From Petrimonas sp. IBARAKI (GTDB lineage Bacteria > Bacteroidota > Bacteroidia > Bacteroidales > Dysgonomonadaceae): a DNA stretch of 64,000 nucleotides. Each line of letters starts with the position of its first letter. Position 1 is the first letter of the stretch. A model generated the notes under the pieces. That model made no database searches, was not told the origin of the DNA, and saw only the letters and a list, made by a program, of their open reading frames with translations. A program made the translations under genes and the position numbers. The DNA is taken from NCBI GenBank assembly GCA_002356435.2, contig AP018040.2, positions 3,038,001 to 3,102,000 on the forward strand, read 5' to 3'. This document shows, one piece after another, positions 42,591 through 62,989 of this stretch.

Positions 42591-42629
42591 TTGTCTTCAT
42601 TTACGATATATTCGTACTTTTGTATCGTA
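42591..42629 (+). promoter_or_regulatory. blaI promoter with overlapping operator palindrome
   Basis: TTG (42591-42593), 21-base spacer and TACTTTTG (42615-42622) form the promoter. An inverted repeat TACGA-tatat-TCGTA (42602-42616) lies between -33 and -7, and a third arm TATCGTA (42623-42629) repeats the TACGATA half-site in inverse orientation across the -7. BlaI/MecI repressors bind TAC(A/G)-type dyads across promoters, so this is the likely autoregulatory operator. Confidence 0.65.
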
Positions 42630-42653: not shown

Positions 42654-43016
42654 ATGGAAAGATTAACACCTCAGGAAGAAAACATTATGCTCCACGTGTG
42701 GCAAATTGGCGAATGTGCCATAAAAGATGTCCACGACAGGCTCGAGGAGCCTAAATTACCCTACACCACCGTGGCTTCAGTATTCAACAACCTTGAGAAC
42801 AAGGGTTATCTCAATAAATCACGTTCCGGCAACATGAAAGTTTTCACCCCAAGGATCTCGGAAGCGACGTACAAAAGACATTTTCTGTCGGGAGTAGTGA
42901 AAAGCTATTTCGATAATTCGTATAAAGAACTGGTGTCGTTCTTTGCCAAGGAGCAGAAAATTTCGTCCGAGGAACTGGAAGAAATTATTCGTCTGATTGA
43001 GAAAAAACAGAAATAG
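42654..43016 (+). CDS. BlaI/MecI/CopY-family transcriptional repressor
   Basis: This 120-residue winged-helix repressor matches the BlaI family: LTPQEENIMLHVWQIGECAIKDV at the start, the recognition helix YTTVASVFNNLENKGYLNKS (about residues 37-56), and a C-terminal dimerisation helix (SYKELVSFFAKEQKISSEE). Family members are inactivated when a paired M56 membrane peptidase triggers their cleavage. The frame is open further upstream to 42591, but that region is the promoter. The next gene, 74 bases downstream, is an M56 peptidase, which supports a sensor-repressor pair. It may control the whole 42.6-48.7 kb cluster. Confidence 0.9.
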   Translation: MERLTPQEENIMLHVWQIGECAIKDVHDRLEEPKLPYTTVASVFNNLENKGYLNKSRSGNMKVFTPRISEATYKRHFLSGVVKSYFDNSYKELVSFFAKEQKISSEELEEIIRLIEKKQK

Positions 43017-43090: not shown

Positions 43091-44785
43091 ATGGAAACGC
43101 AATTTTTCATATACCTGGCCAAAGTAAACGGAGCTTTGCTGCTTTTTTACCTGCTGTATATTGCGGTTTTTCGGCACGATACGTTCATCCGGCTACGGAG
43201 GTCGTACCTATTGTCGGCTGTTCTGTTTTCGTTGCTTTATCCTCTTTTTACAGTAGATTCCCTGGGTGGATTATTTTCAATCTTGCAGTCACGTCAACCC
43301 GTGGAAGCGACTATTGAACTCGGTGAACCTACCGCTCTTCTGCTGGAAAGTGACGCTGCCGGATTTACGGTTCCATGGAGGTTTATTGTTCAAAGCATAC
43401 TTCTTTTAGGAAGCCTTTTTTTTGCTTTCCGGTTGATCATGCAAGTCGTTTCCATTGTCCGGATCCGGCGCCGGTGCCGGGAAGAGGTTATTTCGGGATA
43501 CAAAATCCTAAACGCTTCACACGAAATAACTCCCTTCTCGTTTTTCAAATGGATAATCGTAAATACGGATGCACACTCCGAAGAAGAGCTACAGCAGATC
43601 CTCATCCACGAAAGCACCCATGTCCGCCAATGGCATTCGGCAGATGTGTTGTTGGGTGAGTTGCTTTCCGTCTTTTTCTGGTGGAATCCGGCAGTCTGGC
43701 TGTTGAAGCGCGAAATCGTCATCAACCTCGAATACCTGGCCGATAACGATGTGCTTCAACACGGTGTAAACAGCAGGGAATACCAATACCACCTGCTCAA
43801 ACTGACTTATCACGAAACGGCCGTTCCGTTAAGTAATCACTTTAATGTATCACAATTAAAACAGCGTATCACGATGATGAACAAAACCCAATCGCCGGCA
43901 GTGAAGCTGGCCAAGTACCTGACTGTAATTCCGCTGGTTCTGCTGCTGATAACCTTGAACAGTTGTTTGAGTAAAGAAAAGCAAACCGACGAAAAATCGA
44001 ACGATCAAACGGAAGAATTACAAAACTCTTCCAGTAAGAACGATATCAAAGCAGATGTTAGTGAAGGTTATGTACCACCTGTAACCGACAGTCAAGAAGA
44101 GATTTTTTCAGTAGTGGAAGAGCAACCGCTTTATCCCGGCGGAAACGCCGCCATGATGAAATTCCTGAGCAACAATATAAAATATCCGGTGGCAGCGCAG
44201 GAGAAAGGGACTCAAGGACGTGTCATCACCAATTTTGTGGTGGAAAAAGACGGTAGCCTGTCCGATATCCAAGTAATTCGTGGTGTTGACCCGTCACTGG
44301 ATGCGGAAGCTTTACGTGTACTAAAAACCATGCCTAAATGGAAACCTGGAAAGCAGAAGGGCGAAGAAGTGAGGGTACGCTTCACGCTTCCGGTAGTTTT
44401 CCGCTTGCAGTCTCCTCCTCCGCCGCCACCACCGCCACCAACACCTGTAAAGGAAAGTGGTTCCAATGACGTTTTCGTTGTGGTAGAAAAACAACCTGAA
44501 TTCCCCGGTGGAAACGCTGCCATGATGAAATTCCTGAGCGACAACATAAAGTATCCGGCGGAAGCACAGGAAAAAGGAATACACGGACGTATAATTACTA
44601 ATTTTGTGGTGGAAAAGGACGGTAGCCTCAACGAAGTGAAAGTGGTTCGTGGTGTCGATCCCTTGCTGGACGCGGAAGCCGTTAGGGTTATTCAGTCGAT
44701 GCCCAACTGGAAACCGGGAACACAAAAAGGAGAGACAGTAAGAGTAAGGTATACGTTACCCGTTTTTTTTAGGTTGCAACAATAA
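43091..44785 (+). CDS. BlaR1-like M56 membrane metallopeptidase with two TonB C-terminal domains
   Basis: The 564-residue protein starts with four membrane helices of the BlaR1/MecR1 type (about residues 1-125 and a last one near 285). The cytoplasmic loop carries the zinc motif HESTHVRQWHS (His173) and the downstream LEYLADND (ligand Glu/Asp). After the last membrane helix come two repeats of the TonB/TolA C-terminal domain (about 336-440 and 460-564; PGGNAAMMKFLS, GRVITNFVVEKDGS, MPKWKPG), joined by a proline run (PPPPPPPPPTP, about residues 440-452). The architecture suggests a periplasmic sensor or energy-coupling module linked to intramembrane proteolysis of the repressor. It follows blaI and precedes a longer paralogue by 12 bases. 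Confidence 0.9.
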   Translation: METQFFIYLAKVNGALLLFYLLYIAVFRHDTFIRLRRSYLLSAVLFSLLYPLFTVDSLGGLFSILQSRQPVEATIELGEPTALLLESDAAGFTVPWRFIVQSILLLGSLFFAFRLIMQVVSIVRIRRRCREEVISGYKILNASHEITPFSFFKWIIVNTDAHSEEELQQILIHESTHVRQWHSADVLLGELLSVFFWWNPAVWLLKREIVINLEYLADNDVLQHGVNSREYQYHLLKLTYHETAVPLSNHFNVSQLKQRITMMNKTQSPAVKLAKYLTVIPLVLLLITLNSCLSKEKQTDEKSNDQTEELQNSSSKNDIKADVSEGYVPPVTDSQEEIFSVVEEQPLYPGGNAAMMKFLSNNIKYPVAAQEKGTQGRVITNFVVEKDGSLSDIQVIRGVDPSLDAEALRVLKTMPKWKPGKQKGEEVRVRFTLPVVFRLQSPPPPPPPPPTPVKESGSNDVFVVVEKQPEFPGGNAAMMKFLSDNIKYPAEAQEKGIHGRIITNFVVEKDGSLNEVKVVRGVDPLLDAEAVRVIQSMPNWKPGTQKGETVRVRYTLPVFFRLQQ

Positions 44786-44797
44786 GAGGCTGAACAA

Positions 44798-47311
44798 ATG
44801 GAAGCACTTATCGCATACATCATTAAAGTTAACATAGCACTGATATTTTTTTATTTGCTGTATGTTATTTTCTTGAAAAAAGACACATTTTTTGCTTTCA
44901 GGCGCTATTTTATTTTAGCAGCGACAGTGTTTTCATTTGTTTACCCGTTTATTACCGTATCTGCCTGGGAAAATATAATTTCATTTGAAAAACCACAGAA
45001 ATACACTACTCAGGTAACGGTGGAAGATCCTGCTTTTGCCGTTGTTTTGGCAGACGAAGTTCAAACAGCGGAACCTGTCAACACGATTAACATTAACTGG
45101 TGGCAGGTTTTACTTCTCTTATTGTCCGCAGGAGTAGTCTTCTTCTTAGCTCGTTTTACCTGGCAACTGGTCAGTATTTTACAGATAAAACACAAAAGCA
45201 TCAGGAAGAATATTGATGGGATGGAGGTATTCGACTTATACGATGAAATAACACCGTTTTCTTTCTTCCGATGGATCTTCATCCACCTCGACTCACATTC
45301 CGACACCGAAATTAAACAGATACTTCTGCACGAACAAACGCATGCACGCCAATGGCATTCTGTTGATATTATTCTCATGGAGTTGCTTTGCGTATTTTTA
45401 TGGTGGAACCCCATCATCTGGCTGATGAAGAGGGAAACAGCCATTAACCTGGAACATCTGGCCGACAACGGTGTTTTGCGAAAAGGAGTAAACAGCCGCG
45501 ATTATCAATATTATCTTCTACGCCTTACCTACCACCAAAATGCTACCCGGATTGTAAACAATTTTAATGTATCACTTTTAAAACAACGTATCACGATGAT
45601 GAACAAAACCAAATCGCCGGCACGAAAGCTGGTAAAATACCTGATTGCCCTGCCATTGGCGCTTCTTTTAATGGCAGGCAACAGTGTTTACGCCCAAAAC
45701 CAAAGAGAGAGTGAAATCTTTACAGAAGTAGAGAAATATCCTGAATTCCCGGGAGGGAACCAGGCATTTATGAAGTATCTTGTCGAAAGCATCAAGTATC
45801 CGGTTAAAGCTCAGGAAAACAACGAACAAGGCAGAGTTATCACCAACTTTGTGGTAGAAAAGGACGGAAGTATTTCCAATATTAAAGTCATCCGTGGAGT
45901 AACTGCCGCGCTGGATGCCGAAGCCGTGAGGTTGCTGAACTCCATGCCTAATTGGCAATCTGGCGAACATCAGGGTAAACCCGCCAGGGTACGGTTTACC
46001 TTGCCGATTGTCTTCAGGTTACAAGGCGGCAGCGCAGGGAAGAGCCAGAGCCCTGTAACGCCGGTTTCTGCAGATGTCAATGAAAAAGGAAAAATCCTGG
46101 ACGAAGTGGTCGTTGTAGGCTATGGGCCAACCCATCGAGAATCGATACCTTCCCCACAGGAATTTGCCGAATCAAAAGATAACGAACTCTTTATTGTTGT
46201 GGAAGTCCAGCCGCAATATCCCGGTGGAGATATAACCATGAACAAATTCATTTCTGACAACTTACAATATCCAAAAATTGCACAAGAAAATGGAATTCAA
46301 GGACGAGTAATCACTCAGTTTATTGTTGAAAAAGACGGAAGCCTTTCCGATATCCAGGTTGTTCGTGGTGTAGATCCATCGTTAGACAAAGAAGCTATAC
46401 GTCTTATTCGCTTAATGCCTGAGTGGATCCCCGGAACGCAGCGTGGAAACAAAGTAAGGGTAAGATATACGTTGCCTGTTACATTCCGGTTGTCGGATGA
46501 AGCACCAACCGTCGAGGCCGCTAAGGGTGTTCAAGGGAAACTGAATGATCCTGTAATAAAGATTGGAAGCAGTGACGCAACTTTTGTTGTAGTTGAAGAA
46601 CAGCCCGAATTTCCGGGTGGAAACGCAGCCATGATGAACTTCATTACCGAAAACATCCGTTATCCGAAAGAGGTACACGAAAAAGGAATTCAGGGACGTG
46701 TAATCACCAAGTTCATAGTGAGGAAAGATGGCAGTATAGACAGCGTACAAATCGCACGGGGGGTTGACCCGTTACTGGATGCCGAGGCCATCCGGGTAGT
46801 GGAATCGATGCCAACGTGGAAGCCGGGCAAGCAACGCGGACAACCCGTAAACGTAATGTTTACCCTGCCTGTCGTTTTCAGGTTGGATAAAAAGACGGAG
46901 GATGGCATTCAAAAAAGTCAAACCTCATCGAAAAATGTACAAAACCCTGAATTTCCGGGAGGAGAAAATGCTTATATGAAGTTCTTATCGGATAACATTA
47001 AGTATCCCGTTATTGCACAGGAGAACGGTATCCAGGGGTTTATAGATGCCGTGTTCAACATCGATACAAAGGGAAAAGTCACTTTTGTTAAATTCAATAG
47101 ATCCGTTGACCCGTCCTTGGACAAGGAAGTTAAACGCGTGATAGAATTAATGCCTGACTGGATCCCAGGCAAGTTTAATGGAGCAGCGACAAGCATTACG
47201 AGTGGAGCCTCCTTTGTTTTCCGCCTGCAAGGCGATGGCGTTGATGAGTATAAAGGCCCAACTCCCAGCAACGCAATAGTTGTTGTAGGATACGGAAGTT
47301 CGAAGAAATAA
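44798..47311 (+). CDS. BlaR1-like M56 membrane metallopeptidase with four TonB C-terminal domains and SusC-like VVVVGYG motifs
   Basis: This 837-residue paralogue has the same four-helix M56 core with HEQTHARQWHS (His178) and LEHLADNG. The extracytoplasmic part holds four TonB C-terminal repeats (about residues 304-409, 463-568, 593-700 and 715-812), the fourth diverged (GFIDAVFNIDTKGKVTF instead of GRVITxFxVxKDGS). Between repeats 1 and 2 lies LDEVVVVGYGPTHRES (about 432-447), and the last residues are NAIVVVGYGSSKK. Both copies match the DEVVVVGYG motif found before the plug of SusC proteins, present in the SusC gene of this window. I know no function for this motif in an M56 protein; a link between TonB box recognition and sensing is inference. 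Confidence 0.88.
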   Translation: MEALIAYIIKVNIALIFFYLLYVIFLKKDTFFAFRRYFILAATVFSFVYPFITVSAWENIISFEKPQKYTTQVTVEDPAFAVVLADEVQTAEPVNTININWWQVLLLLLSAGVVFFLARFTWQLVSILQIKHKSIRKNIDGMEVFDLYDEITPFSFFRWIFIHLDSHSDTEIKQILLHEQTHARQWHSVDIILMELLCVFLWWNPIIWLMKRETAINLEHLADNGVLRKGVNSRDYQYYLLRLTYHQNATRIVNNFNVSLLKQRITMMNKTKSPARKLVKYLIALPLALLLMAGNSVYAQNQRESEIFTEVEKYPEFPGGNQAFMKYLVESIKYPVKAQENNEQGRVITNFVVEKDGSISNIKVIRGVTAALDAEAVRLLNSMPNWQSGEHQGKPARVRFTLPIVFRLQGGSAGKSQSPVTPVSADVNEKGKILDEVVVVGYGPTHRESIPSPQEFAESKDNELFIVVEVQPQYPGGDITMNKFISDNLQYPKIAQENGIQGRVITQFIVEKDGSLSDIQVVRGVDPSLDKEAIRLIRLMPEWIPGTQRGNKVRVRYTLPVTFRLSDEAPTVEAAKGVQGKLNDPVIKIGSSDATFVVVEEQPEFPGGNAAMMNFITENIRYPKEVHEKGIQGRVITKFIVRKDGSIDSVQIARGVDPLLDAEAIRVVESMPTWKPGKQRGQPVNVMFTLPVVFRLDKKTEDGIQKSQTSSKNVQNPEFPGGENAYMKFLSDNIKYPVIAQENGIQGFIDAVFNIDTKGKVTFVKFNRSVDPSLDKEVKRVIELMPDWIPGKFNGAATSITSGASFVFRLQGDGVDEYKGPTPSNAIVVVGYGSSKK

Positions 47312-54364: not shown

Positions 54365-54898
54365 ATGAGAAAAGAAAACATCGCATCCCTCTATAACCGT
54401 TACGTGGACGATTTGTACACGTATGCCCTCTATCTTGGTTTTGAGAAAGGGATCATTATGGATGCTATTCACGATGTATTTTGTAAATTTGCGGCCGATG
54501 AAAAGCAGCTTCAAGATGTTTCAAACCTGAAATTTTATCTTTTCAAATCACTGAAAAACAGAATATACGATATTTATAAAGCGCAAAAAAAATATATTGG
54601 ATTATCAACCATTGACGCGCAGGATGCGCCTTTCAATATCCAGGTTACCATCGAGGACCGGCTTATCGACAAAGAAGAGCAGCAACAGATAAAAGACCAA
54701 CTCTCGGAAATGCTTGACAGCCTTACCGAACGTCAACGTGAAGTGGTTTACCTACGTTATGTTCAGGAATACGATTATGTACAAATCTCCGAATTGCTGA
54801 ACATCAGTATCCACGGATGCCGGAAACTTCTCTCAAAAGCCATGCAAAACCTACGTGAAAAGTACGGTGCACTCGTTTTCCTTTTTCTCTTTTCTTAA
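54365..54898 (+). CDS. ECF-type RNA polymerase sigma factor of a PUL
   Basis: The 177-residue protein has the ECF sigma-70 layout: region 2 (YNRYVDDLYTYALYLGFEKGIIMDAIHDVFCKF, in two parts) and region 4 (LTERQREVVYLRYVQEYDYVQIS and SIHGCRKLLSKAMQNLREK, the DNA-binding helix-turn-helix). It precedes a FecR-type anti-sigma gene and an STN-containing SusC by design, so it should be released when the transporter meets its substrate and then transcribe the uptake genes. No good TAnnTTTG element is seen before its own start. The C-terminus is unusually hydrophobic (LVFLFLFS). Confidence 0.92.
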   Translation: MRKENIASLYNRYVDDLYTYALYLGFEKGIIMDAIHDVFCKFAADEKQLQDVSNLKFYLFKSLKNRIYDIYKAQKKYIGLSTIDAQDAPFNIQVTIEDRLIDKEEQQQIKDQLSEMLDSLTERQREVVYLRYVQEYDYVQISELLNISIHGCRKLLSKAMQNLREKYGALVFLFLFS

Positions 54899-55014
54899 CG
54901 CAAAAGTGTTAAAATTATAGGATTTTTCAAAAACAAGGGGATAAATTTTTCCCGTAGTCGTCTATTTAATGAACGCGCTTCTAACTGGTTGAAGTCGCAT
55001 GAAATGAATTTACG

Positions 55015-56202
55015 ATGCCAAATTATACACGACATACCGATTTTCTAAAAGACAAGCAGTTCATCCGCTGGCAATTAGCGCCGGATGAGGAGCTGGAAGC
55101 GCATTGGGAAGGCTTTATCAAACAAAACCCGGAGTTAAAAATTGCCTTACAGCAAGCCATTGACTACCTTAAAACAACCGGACTGAACAAAAGCACCTTA
55201 AACGAGGATGAACGTATACGTTTGTTGAATGAAATTCAATCCACCGTCGAACGATCGTTGAAAAGAATAAAAAGCCGCCGGCTTATTCAACTCTCCGTTG
55301 CTTCCTGCGCAGCTATTACCTTACTTATTATTGGATTAAACCACTTTGTTTTCCAAAAAAAGGGAACCCTGTTTTCACCGGAACAAGAACTCATTGTTGG
55401 AAGTCTGTTAAACAACGAAGACATTCAACTGATTACTGACGAGAAATCGCTATCGTTCCAAAATGATGTGCAAATGGAGTTCGATGAAAGCGGAAAAGCA
55501 AAAATTACACAGGGGAACAATGGAGGAAAAACTGCAGAATTAACTGGGAGCAAACAAAATACACTAATCGTCCCATACGGAAAACGCTCCACACTTACCC
55601 TTTCCGACGGGAGTAAAGTGTGGCTCAATTCCGGTTCCGTACTTGAATTTCCGGCCCAATTTACCGAAAACAAACGGGAGATCCGGCTAGCGTCGGGAGA
55701 AATGTATATTGAAGTAGCACCCGACAGCCAAAAACCGTTTCACGTAAGCACTTCCGATTTTAACGTAAAGGTGTACGGCACCAAGTTCAATATCTCCGCT
55801 TATGCCGATTCCCCACGATCGGTAGTGTTGGTGGAAGGCAAAGTGAGTCTGAAACCCATAAATAAAAAGGAAACTTTCTTATCGCCCAGCGAACAGGCTG
55901 TTTATTCAGATAACGGAACCTTCAACACGCAAAAAGTAGATGTAAATCAGTTTATCAGCTGGAAAAATGGTTACCTGGAATTCGATAAAACCCCTATGAC
56001 AGAAGTACTGAAACAGATCGGAAGATACTACAACCTCTCTTTTGACTTCGATAACGATGTGAACCTACAGAAGCGGACCTGTACCGGAAAAATTTATCTC
56101 TCAGAAAACCTGGATAACATAATGGCCACGGTAGGACTGCTGTCCTCAACTAAATACATAAAAGACAACGATCAAGTATTCATAATTAACGAATCCAATT
56201 AA
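55015..56202 (+). CDS. FecR-type anti-sigma factor
   Basis: The 395-residue inner-membrane protein has a cytoplasmic N-terminal part (about residues 1-88) that would bind the sigma factor, one membrane helix (about 89-111, LIQLSVASCAAITLLIIGLNHFVF), a FecR periplasmic domain (about 185-285: YGKRSTLTLSDGSKVWLNSGS, VEVAPDSQKPFHV-like) and a C-terminal DUF4974 domain (about 318-393, LEFDKTPMTEVLKQIGRYYNLSF), which has the secretin/TonB short domain fold and contacts the SusC STN domain. It is the middle part of the sigma/anti-sigma/transporter relay. A gap of 127 bases with a partial hairpin precedes susC. Confidence 0.94.
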   Translation: MPNYTRHTDFLKDKQFIRWQLAPDEELEAHWEGFIKQNPELKIALQQAIDYLKTTGLNKSTLNEDERIRLLNEIQSTVERSLKRIKSRRLIQLSVASCAAITLLIIGLNHFVFQKKGTLFSPEQELIVGSLLNNEDIQLITDEKSLSFQNDVQMEFDESGKAKITQGNNGGKTAELTGSKQNTLIVPYGKRSTLTLSDGSKVWLNSGSVLEFPAQFTENKREIRLASGEMYIEVAPDSQKPFHVSTSDFNVKVYGTKFNISAYADSPRSVVLVEGKVSLKPINKKETFLSPSEQAVYSDNGTFNTQKVDVNQFISWKNGYLEFDKTPMTEVLKQIGRYYNLSFDFDNDVNLQKRTCTGKIYLSENLDNIMATVGLLSSTKYIKDNDQVFIINESN

Positions 56203-56249
56203 ACTTTAAGCCTATGTACAGCAATAGATGATAATAACAAAAACCAAAA

Positions 56250-56278
56250 GCCGAACGATACTGGGAATACCGTCCGGC
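56250..56278. repeat. Imperfect inverted repeat between fecR and susC
   Basis: GCCGAACGATA and TACCGTCCGGC flank a 7-base loop. The plus-strand RNA has two A-C mismatches, while the minus-strand RNA would pair fully with two G-U pairs. It may be a weak attenuator between the regulators and the transporter, or a remnant. Confidence 0.35.
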
Positions 56279-56329
56279 CAGATTGAATTTAATTACCTGG
56301 ATTATTAATAATTAAAATCGTACAAAGAT

Positions 56330-59300
56330 ATGAATAAACATTGTATTGAGGGGAGAGAACCCCTCAATAATTTAAAACACGTTCTAAAAATCATGAGAAT
56401 AACCCTGTCCTTCTTGTTTTTTTGCATACTGTTCTCTTCAGCGTCAAACAGTTATTCTCAGGAATTTACCATCAAGTCAAAAACGGCTTCTATAAAAGAA
56501 GTGTGTAAGGAGATCGAAAAGGAAAGTGATTATGTTTTCATTTTCTCGGATAACTGTGAGAAGCTGATTGACAAGCAAGTAAACGTTGAAGCTAACTCAA
56601 AAGATGTGACGGAAGTTCTGAATGCAGTATTATCCAGCACAGGGCTCACGTATAAAATATTGGATAAACAAATTGTTGTCTATAAATCCACAGAATCTGC
56701 TCCGTCTGTAGCTGTTGAACAACCGGACATCAATATTATTCAACAACCGGCTAAGAAGCAAATAACCGGTAAAGTCGTAGATGCACAAGGAGATGCCATA
56801 ATTGGAGCAAACATTATTGAAACCGGGACAACCAATGGAACCGTTACCGATATAGATGGAAAATTTTCGCTTAACGTAGAAAATAACTCTTACATTAATA
56901 TTTCTTATATCGGATACCTGGAGCAAAGTATAGCCACCGAAGGAAGATCCGTTTTTAACATTACCCTTTTAGAAGATACAAAAGCGTTGGACGAAGTGGT
57001 TGTTGTAGGCTATGGAACTATAAGAAGAGAAGAGCTAACAAATGCTGTTTCCAGTGTAAAATCAGAGGATTTTGTAAAAGGATCTATTACAGATGCAGCA
57101 CAATTAATTAAAGGGCAGGTAGCCGGGGTGAATATTATAAATCCTGATGCAAATCCAACAGGCACCTCCCAAATTGTTTTGCGTGGAGTTACAACATTAG
57201 CCTCAGGAACTCAGCCTTTGATAGTTATAGACGGGGTACCAGGCTCTCTTTCAGATGTTTCGCCTGATGATATAGAGTCAATTGATATTTTGAAAGATGG
57301 ATCGGCTGCAGCAATATACGGCACAAGGGGTACAAATGGAGTTATTTTAATTACAACAAAAAAAGTAAGAGGTGAAACTCCCACAACAATTGAGTTGAAT
57401 AGTTATGTTACAACTCAGACTATTACTAAACAACTTGAATTTATGAATGCTGAACAATATCGTTCATTGGTTTCCCAGAAAAAGCCAGGAGCTATAGATT
57501 ACGGTTCAAACACGAATTGGGTTGATGAAATTTTCCGTACACCATTCTCACACACTCATAATATTAGTCTGAAAGGTGGAAATTCTAACGCTAATTATAT
57601 TATGAATATAAACTACAAAGCACTACAAGGATTAATGCTGCGATCAGATAATGATGTACTTACAGCTCGCATTGAAGCAAATCATTCGATGTTTAACGGT
57701 AAATTACGCATTAATGGGAGTATAATCGGATTTGATCAAAAATATTTTTCCGGTGGTGATGGTTATAGTTGGAGAGGTGACGTTTATAGAAATGCACTTA
57801 TTTACAATCCGACCGACCCTATAAAAAATGAAAATGATAAATGGACAGAACATCCGGACATGAATAATTATGCAAATCCTCTCGGACTAATTTATGAAAC
57901 CGAAGGAGAAATAAATATTACTAACTTTAGACCGTTTGGAACAATTACATATTATCCTACAGAAAACCTTAATTTGAAAATTTTAGGTTCAAAAGATATC
58001 TTCAATCGTACAGCCGGATATGCGGAGTCGTTCGATCACTTAAATAGTATTAGAGAGAACCGAACCGGTTTTGCATCAAGAGGAACTAACAGAAATGTTA
58101 ATGATTTGTTAGAATTTACAATAAATCACTCAAGTTCACTCGGTAGTCATAATCTCAATTTATTGGGTGGTTACAGTTTTCAACAAAATGTGTATGAGTT
58201 TTATTGGATGAATAACTTTGATTTTCCGAGCGATCAATACTCTTACAACAATATGTCAGACGGAAAGGCTTTGACTGCGGGGAGGGCTGGAATGGATTCC
58301 TACAAAGAATCATCAAAAATAGTAAGCTACTTTGCACGAGCTAATTACAGTTTTGCAAATAAATATATGCTTATGGCCAGCTTAAGATATGAGGGATCTT
58401 CTAAGTTTGGAGAAGACCATAAATGGGGTGCCTTTCCTGCAGTTTCAGGCGGCTGGAATTTGCTAAATGAACCTTTTATGCAAAATAACAAACTACCTTT
58501 TTCTCAATTGAAGATCAGAGCTGGTTTCGGCATAACGGGAACAGCCCCTTCAAGTACTTATCAGTCTTTGAGTAGATTGACATACGGGAATAGATATTTA
58601 TTTGAAAGAGAATGGATTCCAGTTATTTACCCATCATCAAATGCCAATCCTGAATTAAAATGGGAGACTAAGGAAGAGATCAATTTAGGTCTTGATTTCG
58701 GTTTTTTCGAAGACAGACTTTCCGGCACATTTGATTTATATAAAAGAACAACCAAAGACCTTCTCTGGAATTACAATGTAGCAACTCCCCCTTATTTATA
58801 CGGGAGTGTATTAGCAAATGCTGGTTCTATGGAAAATAAGGGTTTAGAGATTCAATTAAATGCCAATCCAATCAAATCAGATGAATTTACTTGGAATACG
58901 TCATTAAATTACTCGACAAATTCTAATAAATTACTATCCCTGTCTAATGAAAAATTCCAATTGAAAAGTGGTTATTTTTATACTGGAAGTACGGGGGAGC
59001 CTATTCAAACTAATACTCATAGAGTCGAAGAAGGCAAAGCTATTGGAAATTTTTGGGGATTTAAGACTATAGATATAGATGAGGAGGGTTATTGGATTAT
59101 TGAAGACAGAAACGGGAATCCAAAACCAATTTCCGAACAACAACCTGATGACAAACAGGTTATAGGGAATGGCCTACCTAAACATTATCTAGGTTGGAAT
59201 AATACATTTTTTTACAAAAACTTTGATTTGGATGTCACGATGAGGGGGGCTTTTAAGTACCAGATCCTAAACATGACTAAAATGTTTTTTGCCGTTCCTG

Positions 59301-59641
59301 TAAGTTTAACCAGAGGAAATGTAATGACAAATACATACGACAATATATTTAACAAAAGGCCCTTGAATGATTTTCAAGAACTTCAATATGTAAGCTATTA
59401 CATAGAAAATGGGGACTACTGGAAAATAGATAACATTACATTAGGTTACACTTTCGACATAAAGAATAAACCTATAAAAAACCTCCGTTTATACTTATCT
59501 GGTTCTAATATGTTTACGTTTACCTCCTACAGTGGAATTGATCCTGAAGTCAATAGCCTTGGCCTAGATCCAGGATTAGATCAACGGGACAGATACCCTT
59601 CAACAAGGTCATTTACTTTTGGAATATCATTGAAATTTTAA
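56330..59641 (+). CDS. SusC-family TonB-dependent transporter with N-terminal STN signalling domain
   Basis: The 1103-residue outer-membrane transporter has a signal sequence (about residues 22-44), an STN (secretin/TonB N-terminal) domain (about 45-120, SIKEVCKEIEKESDYVFIFS), a CarboxypepD_reg domain (about 147-222, ITGKVVDAQGDAIIGANIIE), the family motif ALDEVVVVGYGTIRREE at about 222-238, a plug domain (PLIVIDGVPG, YGTRGTNGVILITTK) and a C-terminal barrel ending TFGISLKF. The STN domain marks it as a sensing transporter acting with the FecR protein two genes upstream. susD follows after 11 bases. The substrate is likely a glycan handled by the two glycosidase-like genes downstream. Confidence 0.96.
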   Translation: MNKHCIEGREPLNNLKHVLKIMRITLSFLFFCILFSSASNSYSQEFTIKSKTASIKEVCKEIEKESDYVFIFSDNCEKLIDKQVNVEANSKDVTEVLNAVLSSTGLTYKILDKQIVVYKSTESAPSVAVEQPDINIIQQPAKKQITGKVVDAQGDAIIGANIIETGTTNGTVTDIDGKFSLNVENNSYINISYIGYLEQSIATEGRSVFNITLLEDTKALDEVVVVGYGTIRREELTNAVSSVKSEDFVKGSITDAAQLIKGQVAGVNIINPDANPTGTSQIVLRGVTTLASGTQPLIVIDGVPGSLSDVSPDDIESIDILKDGSAAAIYGTRGTNGVILITTKKVRGETPTTIELNSYVTTQTITKQLEFMNAEQYRSLVSQKKPGAIDYGSNTNWVDEIFRTPFSHTHNISLKGGNSNANYIMNINYKALQGLMLRSDNDVLTARIEANHSMFNGKLRINGSIIGFDQKYFSGGDGYSWRGDVYRNALIYNPTDPIKNENDKWTEHPDMNNYANPLGLIYETEGEINITNFRPFGTITYYPTENLNLKILGSKDIFNRTAGYAESFDHLNSIRENRTGFASRGTNRNVNDLLEFTINHSSSLGSHNLNLLGGYSFQQNVYEFYWMNNFDFPSDQYSYNNMSDGKALTAGRAGMDSYKESSKIVSYFARANYSFANKYMLMASLRYEGSSKFGEDHKWGAFPAVSGGWNLLNEPFMQNNKLPFSQLKIRAGFGITGTAPSSTYQSLSRLTYGNRYLFEREWIPVIYPSSNANPELKWETKEEINLGLDFGFFEDRLSGTFDLYKRTTKDLLWNYNVATPPYLYGSVLANAGSMENKGLEIQLNANPIKSDEFTWNTSLNYSTNSNKLLSLSNEKFQLKSGYFYTGSTGEPIQTNTHRVEEGKAIGNFWGFKTIDIDEEGYWIIEDRNGNPKPISEQQPDDKQVIGNGLPKHYLGWNNTFFYKNFDLDVTMRGAFKYQILNMTKMFFAVPVSLTRGNVMTNTYDNIFNKRPLNDFQELQYVSYYIENGDYWKIDNITLGYTFDIKNKPIKNLRLYLSGSNMFTFTSYSGIDPEVNSLGLDPGLDQRDRYPSTRSFTFGISLKF

Positions 59642-59652
59642 AAAGTCGACAA

Positions 59653-61266
59653 ATGAAAAAAAGATATTATATAATAATTGCTGTTATTGTGCTATTAATC
59701 AACAATACGGCTTGCAATGATTTAACTGAAACTGTATATTCTGATTTAACTGAAGTAGGATATAGTTATTCACCGGATGAAATTTATAGTGTAATAGGGC
59801 CAGTATATCAGAATATGAGGGGAATGCATTCTCACTCTGGATTTTCCATCATGCAAGAGTCCACTACCGATATTCTGGTTATGCCGGCCAATGCGTCGGG
59901 ATGGGATGATGGAGGAATTTACAAAAAAATGCACTTACACACATGGAACGCAGAAGCACCCCAAGTCAGGAACTTATGGTCCTTACTTTACAGGGGAGTA
60001 TTACATTCAAACAGGATCATCGAACAGTTGGAAAAAGAAATAGTTCCTGTCCCTTCTCATCTTACGAAGGAATCATTTATTGCAGAAATAAAAGTAGCCA
60101 GGGCATTCTATTATTGGCTATTGATAGATAATTTCGGAGATGTTCCTTTTGTAACAACTACTTCTCAAGAACTCCCTACTATTACATCAAAAGATGAAAT
60201 ATTTCAGTCGATTGTAAATGATATAACTTCTTCGTTAGCTCAACTTAGTAGTGAAAACAACCCTCTAATGTATGGGCGTTTTAATAAATGGGCTGCAAAA
60301 ACTCTTTTGGCAAACTTATATTTAAATTCTATCGTTTATACAGGCAAAGCGGAATGGGATAGATGTCTTGCCGAATGCAATGATATAATTAATTCGGAAC
60401 TTTATCGATTGGAAGAAAATTATTCGGACTGTTTTCATCCTCATAATGAGAACTCTGCAGAAACTATCTTTGCCATACCCTATGATGCAATAAATGGTAG
60501 CGGACTGTATTTAAATTACACCTTTCATTCGGCAACAAGATACAAATACAATCTTGCGACTACTCCATGGGGGGCAGGATCAGCAAAAGCTATTTCACAA
60601 TTTATTGACACGTATGATCCTGATGATAGGCGGCTTGATGACACCTGGGAGCATGGACTTCAGTATGCTGCAGATGGTATTACTCCACTCATGTGTACTT
60701 ACGACAGAGCAGGACAGCAATTGAATTATTCTAAAGATTTACCTGACGGGTTGTACACTACTGAAGACGAGGGATACAGAATTAAAAAATACCTTCCTGA
60801 AATAGGAGGTCAATACAATATGAATAATGATGTTCCTTTTTTTAGGTATGCACAGGTTCTAATGATGAAGGCCGAATGTTTATTAAGAAAGGGGCAAGAC
60901 AACGAAGCAGCAACTATTGTAACGCAAGTAAGACAAAGAGCTTTCAAAAACATTCCTTCAAAAGCCATAATTTCAGCCGTACAACTAAAAGCTAATAGTA
61001 AATATAAATATGGTTATGTAGAGGATTATAAAATAATGGAGTATGGCGATATTTCTCCTATTGAATTTGGGGGGTTTTATGACGAGCTGGGTTACGAGTT
61101 TGCTTGCGAATGGATAAGAAGACGAGATATGATACGATTTGGCACGTATACAACAAAAAGTTGGCTATCTCATAAACCTGAAGGAAATAAAGCAAAAGTG
61201 TTCCCTATTCCACAAGTAGTCATTGATGCTAATCCAAATCTGACTCAGAACCCAGATTATCAATAA
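59653..61266 (+). CDS. SusD/RagB-family surface lipoprotein
   Basis: The 537-residue partner of the preceding SusC starts with a lipoprotein signal (lipobox ending NNTAC, Cys21). The family helix EIKVARAFYYWLLIDNFGDVPFV (about residues 146-168, shown in part) and KTLLANLYLNSIVYTG are typical, as is the C-terminal FPIPQVVIDANPNLTQNPDY ending. It binds glycan at the surface and closes the SusC barrel. A 42-base perfect palindrome lies just after the stop codon, separating the transporter genes from the glycosidase genes. Confidence 0.95.
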   Translation: MKKRYYIIIAVIVLLINNTACNDLTETVYSDLTEVGYSYSPDEIYSVIGPVYQNMRGMHSHSGFSIMQESTTDILVMPANASGWDDGGIYKKMHLHTWNAEAPQVRNLWSLLYRGVLHSNRIIEQLEKEIVPVPSHLTKESFIAEIKVARAFYYWLLIDNFGDVPFVTTTSQELPTITSKDEIFQSIVNDITSSLAQLSSENNPLMYGRFNKWAAKTLLANLYLNSIVYTGKAEWDRCLAECNDIINSELYRLEENYSDCFHPHNENSAETIFAIPYDAINGSGLYLNYTFHSATRYKYNLATTPWGAGSAKAISQFIDTYDPDDRRLDDTWEHGLQYAADGITPLMCTYDRAGQQLNYSKDLPDGLYTTEDEGYRIKKYLPEIGGQYNMNNDVPFFRYAQVLMMKAECLLRKGQDNEAATIVTQVRQRAFKNIPSKAIISAVQLKANSKYKYGYVEDYKIMEYGDISPIEFGGFYDELGYEFACEWIRRRDMIRFGTYTTKSWLSHKPEGNKAKVFPIPQVVIDANPNLTQNPDYQ

Positions 61267-61274
61267 ATTTAACA

Positions 61275-61316
61275 AATGTTTCTGAAAAGACCAAATTTGG
61301 TCTTTTCAGAAACATT
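61275..61316 (+). terminator. 42-base perfect palindrome after susD
   Basis: A perfect 21+21 base palindrome (AATGTTTCTGAAAAGACCAAA and its exact reverse complement) begins 9 bases after the susD stop codon. There is no T-run, but the long hairpin could stop transcription partly or protect the susCD mRNA, keeping transporter and enzyme levels different. Confidence 0.6.
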
Positions 61317-61333
61317 CTAACAACATGATTATA

Positions 61334-62989
61334 ATGAAAAACTACTATTTAAGAAATATTTTCATGTTCAGCGTCGGAGTCTTTTTTATTTTTGGATGTC
61401 ATGGAAAAACAGAGAAAAATATTGTAGAAAATGAAAAAGAAAGCTTTCTAAACTGGGAAAACTTTAAAGACTATATACAAAATTTCAATAAAGCTGATAA
61501 AGAATTATACATTCAATTTATTCCCAATAATAAAGCAGAAGATTTTCTCAAAAGAAATATTCCTTGGTTCGAGTGCCCTGATAAAGAGCTTGAAAAAACT
61601 TATTATTTTAGATGGTGGACTTATCGGAAACACATAAAAAAAACTCCTGAAGGTTTCGTTATAACAGAATTTCTTCCAGATGTAACATGGGCAGGAAAAT
61701 ATAATACAATCAATTGCCCTGCAGGACATCATTTTTACGAAGGACGCTGGCTGCATAATTCTACTTATTTACAGGATTACGCGAGATTTTGGTTTAAAGG
61801 AGGTGGAAGTGTACGTTCATATAGCTTTTGGGCTTCAAACTCAATTTTAGCTTTTGCTAGCGTGCATAATGAAAAAAAATTAATTACCGAATTGCTCCCT
61901 TTATTTATTAACAATTATGAATCATGGGAGAGAGAAAGATTATGTCCTGACGGATTATTTTGGCAAATTGATAATAGAGACGGAATGGAAGTGTCCATAG
62001 GAGGCTCAGGGAAAAGGGCAACCATCAATTCATATATGATTAGTGAAGCAGAGGCTATAGCGAAAATAGCAATGATAGAAGGAGATAAACTCCTTTCCGA
62101 TAAATACACCTACAAAATGACAAATCTAAAGACTTTGATGTTATCAAAGTTGTGGGACTCTGAACATAAATTTTTTAAAACACTTCCATTAAATATTGAA
62201 GAAATGGAAAAATGGAAAGATTCTCCTTATAGGAATACTTTTACACAATACTCGAACGAAGACCCAAAACTTGTGAATGTTCGTGAACTTCATGGGTATA
62301 CACCTTGGTATTTTGGCATTCCGGAAGAACAGCATTCAAATGCATGGGAATTCATACTAACGTCGGGAGGATTTAAAGCACCTTTTGGCCCAACGACAGC
62401 AGAACAAAATCATCCAGACTTCAAAGTTGTCTATGAAGGACATGAATGTCAATGGAACGGACCAAGCTGGCCATTCGCAACATCTATAACATTGAAAGCT
62501 ATGGCAAATTTGCTGCGGAAGTATAATCAAACAGTAATTTCAAAAGAGGATTTTTTCGACTTGCTTGGTACTTATTCAAATAGTCATCGACGAATAGATG
62601 AACGTGGACAAAAAATCTGTTGGATTGACGAAAATATCAATCCATATACAGGCGATTGGATTTCAAGAACGATGTTAAAAGCTCGAGAGCGCCAACCCAT
62701 AGAACGAGGTAAAGATTATAACCATTCAGCATTCTGCGACATTGTCATCAGTGATCTGATTGGTATCCAACCTTCTACATCTGATTCTTTGACAATACAT
62801 CCTCTTGTCCCTGAAAATTATTGGAATTGGTTTTGTTTAGATCGGGTAAAATATCACGACAAAATATTGACCATCATCTGGGATAAAAACGGAACAAAGT
62901 ATAAAAGAGATAAAGGCTTTTCTGTATATGTAAATGGTGAATTGAGACACAACTCAAAAAAAATTGATAAAATTATTATTCAAATCTAA
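61334..62989 (+). CDS. MGH1-like (alpha/alpha)6-barrel glycoside hydrolase, lipoprotein
   Basis: The 551-residue protein has a lipoprotein signal (lipobox ending IFGC, Cys22) and an (alpha/alpha)6-type glycosidase domain as in the mannosylglycerate hydrolase MGH1/GH63 group. Features are FRWWTYRKHI near the start, the central LHGYTPWYFGIPEE, FGPTTAEQNHPDF, the substrate-facing QWNGPSWPFATSITLKAM (about residues 373-390) and the C-terminal beta strands ending DKIIIQI. The exact substrate is unknown. The in-frame ATG 9 bases upstream (MIIMKN) is possible, but the chosen start gives a normal signal peptide. The next gene begins 4 bases later. Confidence 0.8.
   Translation: MKNYYLRNIFMFSVGVFFIFGCHGKTEKNIVENEKESFLNWENFKDYIQNFNKADKELYIQFIPNNKAEDFLKRNIPWFECPDKELEKTYYFRWWTYRKHIKKTPEGFVITEFLPDVTWAGKYNTINCPAGHHFYEGRWLHNSTYLQDYARFWFKGGGSVRSYSFWASNSILAFASVHNEKKLITELLPLFINNYESWERERLCPDGLFWQIDNRDGMEVSIGGSGKRATINSYMISEAEAIAKIAMIEGDKLLSDKYTYKMTNLKTLMLSKLWDSEHKFFKTLPLNIEEMEKWKDSPYRNTFTQYSNEDPKLVNVRELHGYTPWYFGIPEEQHSNAWEFILTSGGFKAPFGPTTAEQNHPDFKVVYEGHECQWNGPSWPFATSITLKAMANLLRKYNQTVISKEDFFDLLGTYSNSHRRIDERGQKICWIDENINPYTGDWISRTMLKARERQPIERGKDYNHSAFCDIVISDLIGIQPSTSDSLTIHPLVPENYWNWFCLDRVKYHDKILTIIWDKNGTKYKRDKGFSVYVNGELRHNSKKIDKIIIQI

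Follow-up and report, generated by a model that had tools for sequence, protein, structure and literature searches.

The closest described regulatory systems are the BlaR1/MecR1–BlaI systems, in which an M56 peptidase with an HExxH motif and a distal glutamate carries a beta-lactam sensor domain. The repressor gene lies directly upstream of the peptidase gene, and an operator-like site precedes the repressor. A second point of comparison is the TonB C-terminal domain (TonB_C) in complex with a receptor box (BtuB 2GSK, FhuA 2GRX, FoxA 6I97). According to passages of PMC5413942 and PMC6699858, the box adds as a parallel strand in the solved complexes. For the boxes of BtuB and FhuA, PMC5413942 reports binding at about 9–36 micromolar. 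In SusC-type receptors the Ton box stands after an NTE and is followed by plug and barrel. The box of one SusC protein, Bt1763, is DEVVVTG and was tested experimentally; passages of PMC7782687 state that its deletion or replacement by alanine impaired growth on levan as did loss of SusD. In MxcH-type receptors, which are transporters, a TonB_C-like stretch near the N-terminus and a receptor are joined in one NCBIfam model.

Here we analysed a window of 64,000 nt from Petrimonas sp. IBARAKI (contig AP018040.2, positions 3,038,001–3,102,000). It encodes an M56 protein, here called protein B, in which a single chain combines TonB_C domains with Ton boxes, whereas these two halves belong to two chains in the BtuB, FhuA and FoxA complexes with TonB.

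Operon and domain architecture of protein B

Protein B is encoded on the forward strand at 44798–47311, as are all genes and domains described below. The open reading frame and Pfam confirmed the initial annotation of an 837-residue M56 protein with four TonB_C domains. Peptidase_M56 scored 48.1 bits (cut-off 31), and the match covered residues 166–268 (45293–45601), with HEQTH at residues 178–182. The residues of an HExxH motif and the distal glutamate are zinc ligands. H178, E179, H182 and E219 of protein B were invariant across 18 aligned sequences, as is proper to an M56 peptidase. TonB_C scored 235.6 bits over four stretches (cut-off 24.6), and both the Pfam match and the TonB fold identify them as TonB C-terminal domains. 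The first is located at 45725–46015 (residues 310–406), the second at 46196–46486 (about 467–563), the third at 46586–46879 (about 597–694) and the fourth, which is divergent, at 46931–47221 (712–808). The motif DEVVVVGYG was found between the first and second domains (46100–46126, residues 435–443), and IVVVGYG, followed by SSKK, was found at 47276–47296 (residues 827–833), four residues before the stop. Both places agree with the initial annotation, which had put the motif between the first two repeats and at the extreme C-terminus.

Protein B shares M56, the adjacent repressor gene and the operator-like site with BlaR1/MecR1–BlaI, but it has TonB_C and Ton boxes in place of the beta-lactam sensor domain. 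Pfam gave no match to a penicillin-binding sensor domain at its C-terminus, where TonB_C is found instead, and the NCBIfam BlaR1 models, whose cut-offs are 400 and 1200, stayed far lower at 34.0 and 25.2. The box is shared with SusC-type receptors, but Pfam detected neither plug nor barrel after it in protein B, which is thus not a TonB-dependent receptor. Nor is protein B a TonB energy transducer with a single N-terminal anchor and ExbBD, as its N-terminal part is M56. The MxcH model has a cut-off of 925 and reached 75.8 bits, its best stretch covering model positions 9–102 of 792; MxcH-type proteins are transporters, whereas protein B would be a sensor. For protein B the domains, boxes, their conservation, the operon and the operator-like site are established at the level of sequence.

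The junction after the last membrane helix of protein B (residues about 285–306) reads, by eye, GNSVYA followed by QNQ and resembles a signal-peptidase site, as in many Dysgonomonadaceae proteins. The corresponding junction in protein A, the product of the preceding gene (43091–44785), reads as a lipobox-like NSC, also by eye. Because of these junctions, the periplasmic arm might be cut free.

Protein A is the tandem partner of protein B and consists, by open reading frame and Pfam, of M56 and two TonB_C domains with a proline-rich linker and no Ton box. Upstream of it lies a gene for a BlaI/CopY-type repressor of 120 aa (42654–43016), assigned from the reading frame and its relatives, with the NCBIfam models CopY_TcrY (3.2e-10) and BlaI_of_BCL (3.2e-7) both below their cut-offs. 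The repressor gene is preceded by a putative BlaI operator, TACGATATATTCGTA (TACGA-N5-TCGTA, 42602–42616), which is common to related operons. The operon of protein B therefore includes an adjacent BlaI-type repressor gene, identified by models that stay below cut-off, and a putative operator.

Of 151 distinct stretches upstream of BlaI-type genes that adjoin M56 genes, 91 contained exact TACGA-N5-TCGTA, whereas shuffles averaged 0.02. Split by locus group, the counts were 36/44, 6/33 (Dysgonomonas and neighbours, L106–L139, in which the operator is thus rare), 39/45 and 10/29. An AACTA/TAGTT palindrome stood instead in 17 of the 151 upstream stretches, L232–L248 and L137–L139 among them, and no stretch had both. 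The genome of the window contained five TACGA-N5-TCGTA sites, against two for a backwards control: one in the operon of protein B, one before an M16 peptidase gene, one before an efflux adaptor gene and two inside SusC-/SusD-like genes. An operator search revealed no regulon in six relatives, the backwards control being at least as frequent as TACGA-N5-TCGTA in all six genomes; operon-associated sites were present in four of them (G001, G042, G052, G092). Only two other intergenic targets were repeated. One was the M16 peptidase gene, with the operator 66 bases before it in the genome of the window and 55 bases in one congener (L252, L264). The other was the efflux adaptor gene, which was probably shared recently because two genera have it with no difference over the first 80 residues. 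The sites in the genome thus make the sensor's own operon its clearest target. Further downstream in the window, 54365–62989 encodes, one after another, an ECF sigma factor, FecR, an STN-containing SusC, SusD and an MGH1-like glycoside hydrolase and reads as an ordinary uptake locus under anti-sigma control.

Ton boxes among M56 relatives

The comparison sequence within the window was the Ton box DEVVVVGYG (56990–57016, forward strand) of the STN-type SusC (open reading frame 56330–59641). DEVVVVGYG of protein B also resembles the tested box DEVVVTG, and on these sequence grounds the motif is a Ton box. A degenerate DNA pattern, GTNGTNGTNGGNTAYGG, matched three places in the window (46109, 47279 and 56999) and none in 100 shuffles. 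Genome-wide, the exact VVVGYG DNA pattern matched 25 places, of which two were in the protein B gene and 23 were assigned to SusC-type receptors after inspection of the neighbouring residues by eye; as a control, the backwards pattern matched two places. The near identity of the coding DNA to the SusC gene proposed in the initial annotation held for 27 of 28 bases (46098–46125 against 56988–57015). We considered recent copying of the motif from the SusC gene and rejected it as unlikely, because the relatives retain the protein motif with different codons. The 32 VVVGYG copies, some of which repeat one gene, had 25 DNA spellings, and selection therefore appears to act on the protein.

Relatives were gathered in a family set (101 genomes, 87 with an M56 match), a set of named loci (the best 80 of 478 confirmed, from Dysgonomonadaceae, Bacteroides, Prevotella and others) and a phylum set (296 genomes, 95 with a match, 30 loci kept). 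Frames were taken from part of these matches, and removal of identical tails left 183 M56 reading frames. Among them, a truncated form of one gene still recurs at some loci, and one species is represented by two genomes. The loose motif was present in 26 of 91 frames with TonB_C only, one match being false because it sits inside a TonB_C strand (L161; counted here and masked in the analyses of representatives). It was present in 15 of 18 frames with TonB_C and NTE, in 3 of the 16 that combine TonB_C with plug pieces, in 2 of the 19 that have plug pieces alone and in 5 of 15 frames truncated at their end. It was absent from all 22 frames without any of these pieces, from the single frame with an NTE alone and from the single one with NTE and plug. 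The reversed motif occurred in one of the 183 proteins.

For the linkers, 165 complete frames longer than 330 aa were reduced to 134 representatives at 70 percent identity. The strict motif was found in linkers of 23 of 96 non-redundant proteins with TonB_C and in none of 38 without it; shuffled linkers gave 0.0 such proteins on average. For the loose motif the count was 31 of 96 proteins with TonB_C, against 0.06 in shuffled linkers; it was also found in 1 of the 20 that have just plug or NTE and in none of the 18 that lack all three. A weight matrix was built from the 23 SusC boxes of the genome. At a score of at least 12, it placed boxes in 28 of 56 proteins with at least two TonB_C domains, 5 of 40 with a single domain, 1 of the 20 that have just plug or NTE and none of the 18 without any of these. 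When each was shuffled 30 times, 2, 0, 0 and 0 proteins of these groups attained this score at least once. The motif is short, and a chance match or a simple valine-rich, low-complexity linker might be suspected, but the shuffled-linker counts refute this reading and the single reversed match also speaks against it, so that its probability is close to nil.

The same counts bear on another explanation. A Ton box is TonB's normal ligand (passages of PMC7782687, PMC5413942 and PMC6699858), and a real TonB driven by ExbBD might grip and pull the box of the M56 protein, which would then report Ton energy by force. One M56 protein without TonB_C, L229, has a plug piece and a clear box, as this explanation would allow. 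However, such proteins are rare, the loose linker motif occurring in one of the 38 representatives without TonB_C, and we consider a pulled box quite unlikely.

The Ton box tethered to TonB_C is conserved in many M56–TonB_C relatives. Among 51 close Dysgonomonadaceae relatives with TonB_C, 28 had a loose box and 23 did not. As in protein A, the chain stops directly at the last TonB_C strand in thirteen of these 23, and two others (L104 and L105) end in the box-like VVVVAYA or FIVMGY. Retention of the motif in relatives is thus frequent but not universal. Genes ending in VVVGY[GA]xK-stop gave three matches in the 101 family genomes, all at the ends of M56 genes. On an M56 tree of 126 representatives, the box changed 19 times and TonB_C only twice. 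A test of independent events on this tree had two independent pairs only and gave no support for a tie between box and TonB_C; the tie was not independently replicated because TonB_C changes so rarely. The expectation that the motif is conserved only where TonB_C is present was borne out as near confinement (23/96 against 0/38), but the tie rests on about two changes.

Of 35 boxes in the representatives, 18 were no more than 40 residues from the C-terminus and 11 stood between two TonB_C domains; three preceded the first TonB_C, one was elsewhere after TonB_C and two were in proteins without TonB_C. Close relatives had a C-terminal box, and Bacteroides and Dysgonomonas had a box between domains. 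Tethers were measured for 29 of the 35 boxes, each of which follows a TonB_C. The box was 11–29 residues from the last strand over all 29 and 14–20 residues from it in 26 of them, a length that would be enough for a parallel cross-over.

Receptor-side pieces recur in the family. In Proteiniphilum and others, a SusC-type NTE could be aligned inside the last TonB_C, directly before the box (M56–TonB_C–TonB_C–NTE–box). In L061, L140, L074 and Proteiniphilum loci the NTE was apparently inserted in the last TonB_C before its final strand. Mini plug modules, DIESISVLKD...YGEEGKNGVIxITxK, were seen in M56 proteins of L092, L122, L125, L128 and L139, some of which have more than one copy; the genome of the window itself encodes L139, a paralogue. 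Since NTE and mini plug modules recur, the M56 family combines TonB-side and receptor-side pieces repeatedly. It could be argued that the box is a leftover without function, from a 5' part of SusC (NTE and Ton box) that was copied into the family and is drifting; the NTE directly before the box in many relatives, as in SusC, and the mini plug modules in other M56 proteins are in line with such an origin. However, the motif recurs at different positions and, in aligned relatives, stays while the flanking linkers diverge, and it is kept with 25 spellings among 32 copies. A drifting remnant is thus improbable.

Predicted docking of the box and a proposed sensor

Two AlphaFold models were examined, one of the protein B arm and one of a Bacteroidaceae protein, using the best model of each job (pTM 0.34 and 0.55); strand partners were deduced from DSSP strand lengths. 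In protein B, the internal box was predicted as a strand at model residues 135–140 (protein residues 437–442), and the C-terminal box as a model strand at 525–530. The block of the C-terminal box had a pLDDT of 91; the internal box was less sure, with a block pLDDT of 79 in protein B and 62 in the Bacteroidaceae protein. Two inter-domain linkers lacking a box formed no strand (pLDDT 32–37). The last TonB_C strand was extended through RLQ or RLT in all three domains that precede a box and in none of three others.

As passages of PMC6699858 describe, FoxA pairs in parallel with TonB residues 332–337. In a structure comparison, residues 251–340 of 6i97_D aligned with model residues 298–396, and by our reading the equivalent of TonB 332–337 would lie near LPVVFR of the third TonB_C. 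The lengthening occurs at the stretch by which TonB holds Ton boxes in the solved complexes. Docking of the box in cis is thus predicted. The initial annotation had suggested that the motif could occupy the protein's own TonB domains; a box strand and a longer preceding TonB_C strand are predicted as it would require, but the pTM values of the two models speak against it. Support for self-capping of TonB_C by the tethered box comes from structure prediction.

The box of protein B might instead dock on TonB_C of its partner protein A, or of another protein B, the assembly being the sensor. All six distinct box-bearing tandem arrays had one gene without a box, in which TonB_C ends the protein (it comes first in four arrays and last in the other two), and one gene with it, and this arrangement allows docking between partners. 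However, both members lack a box in two further tandem arrays, a reading of the stretches L066, L071, L072 and L084 gave a box with a single M56 frame, and the lengthened strand was predicted within one chain in models of single chains. We regard docking on a partner as rather unlikely and return to docking in cis.

Protein B would be an M56 sensor protease of the inner membrane, with TonB_C and Ton boxes joined in the single chain of its periplasmic arm. In the most likely arrangement, each box is added as a further parallel strand to the edge by which the TonB_C before it binds receptors, and so the sensor would cap itself. The tethered box might be exchanged for free Ton boxes when SusC-type receptors are loaded, or might give way when the Ton system changes; rearrangement of the arm would follow, and the M56 site would fire. 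Removal of BlaI from TACGA-N5-TCGTA would raise expression of the operon and perhaps also of the M16 protease gene. We infer the membrane topology, the exchange, the signal, the cleavage of BlaI and the readout through BlaI. Taken as a whole, self-capping, exchange with receptor boxes, firing of M56 and removal of BlaI are the best explanation, and we consider the chances of its being right to be about even. Sensing of receptor load by protein B is plausible.

A search of the open-access literature, at the level of titles and a few passages, found no description of a tethered Ton box or of an M56–TonB_C–box architecture, as the initial annotation had supposed. Passages of a P. gingivalis paper with an M56 and a BlaI gene, and of an elastase paper, had no bearing on a tethered box. 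We know of no described sensor of the Ton-system load imposed by SusC-type receptors.

In Bacteroidota a common Ton system serves many SusC-type receptors, of which 23 in this genome alone have the exact VVVGYG box. It is possible, and we propose it tentatively, that protein B represents a new class of Bacteroidota sensor, in which an M56 protease gauges the number of free Ton boxes. Displacement of the tethered cap by boxes of substrate-loaded SusC-type receptors would lead to removal of BlaI, and demand on the Ton system would thereby be measured. If this is true, a widespread BlaR1-like family would gain a concrete ligand, the Ton boxes of receptors, and a testable competition mechanism.
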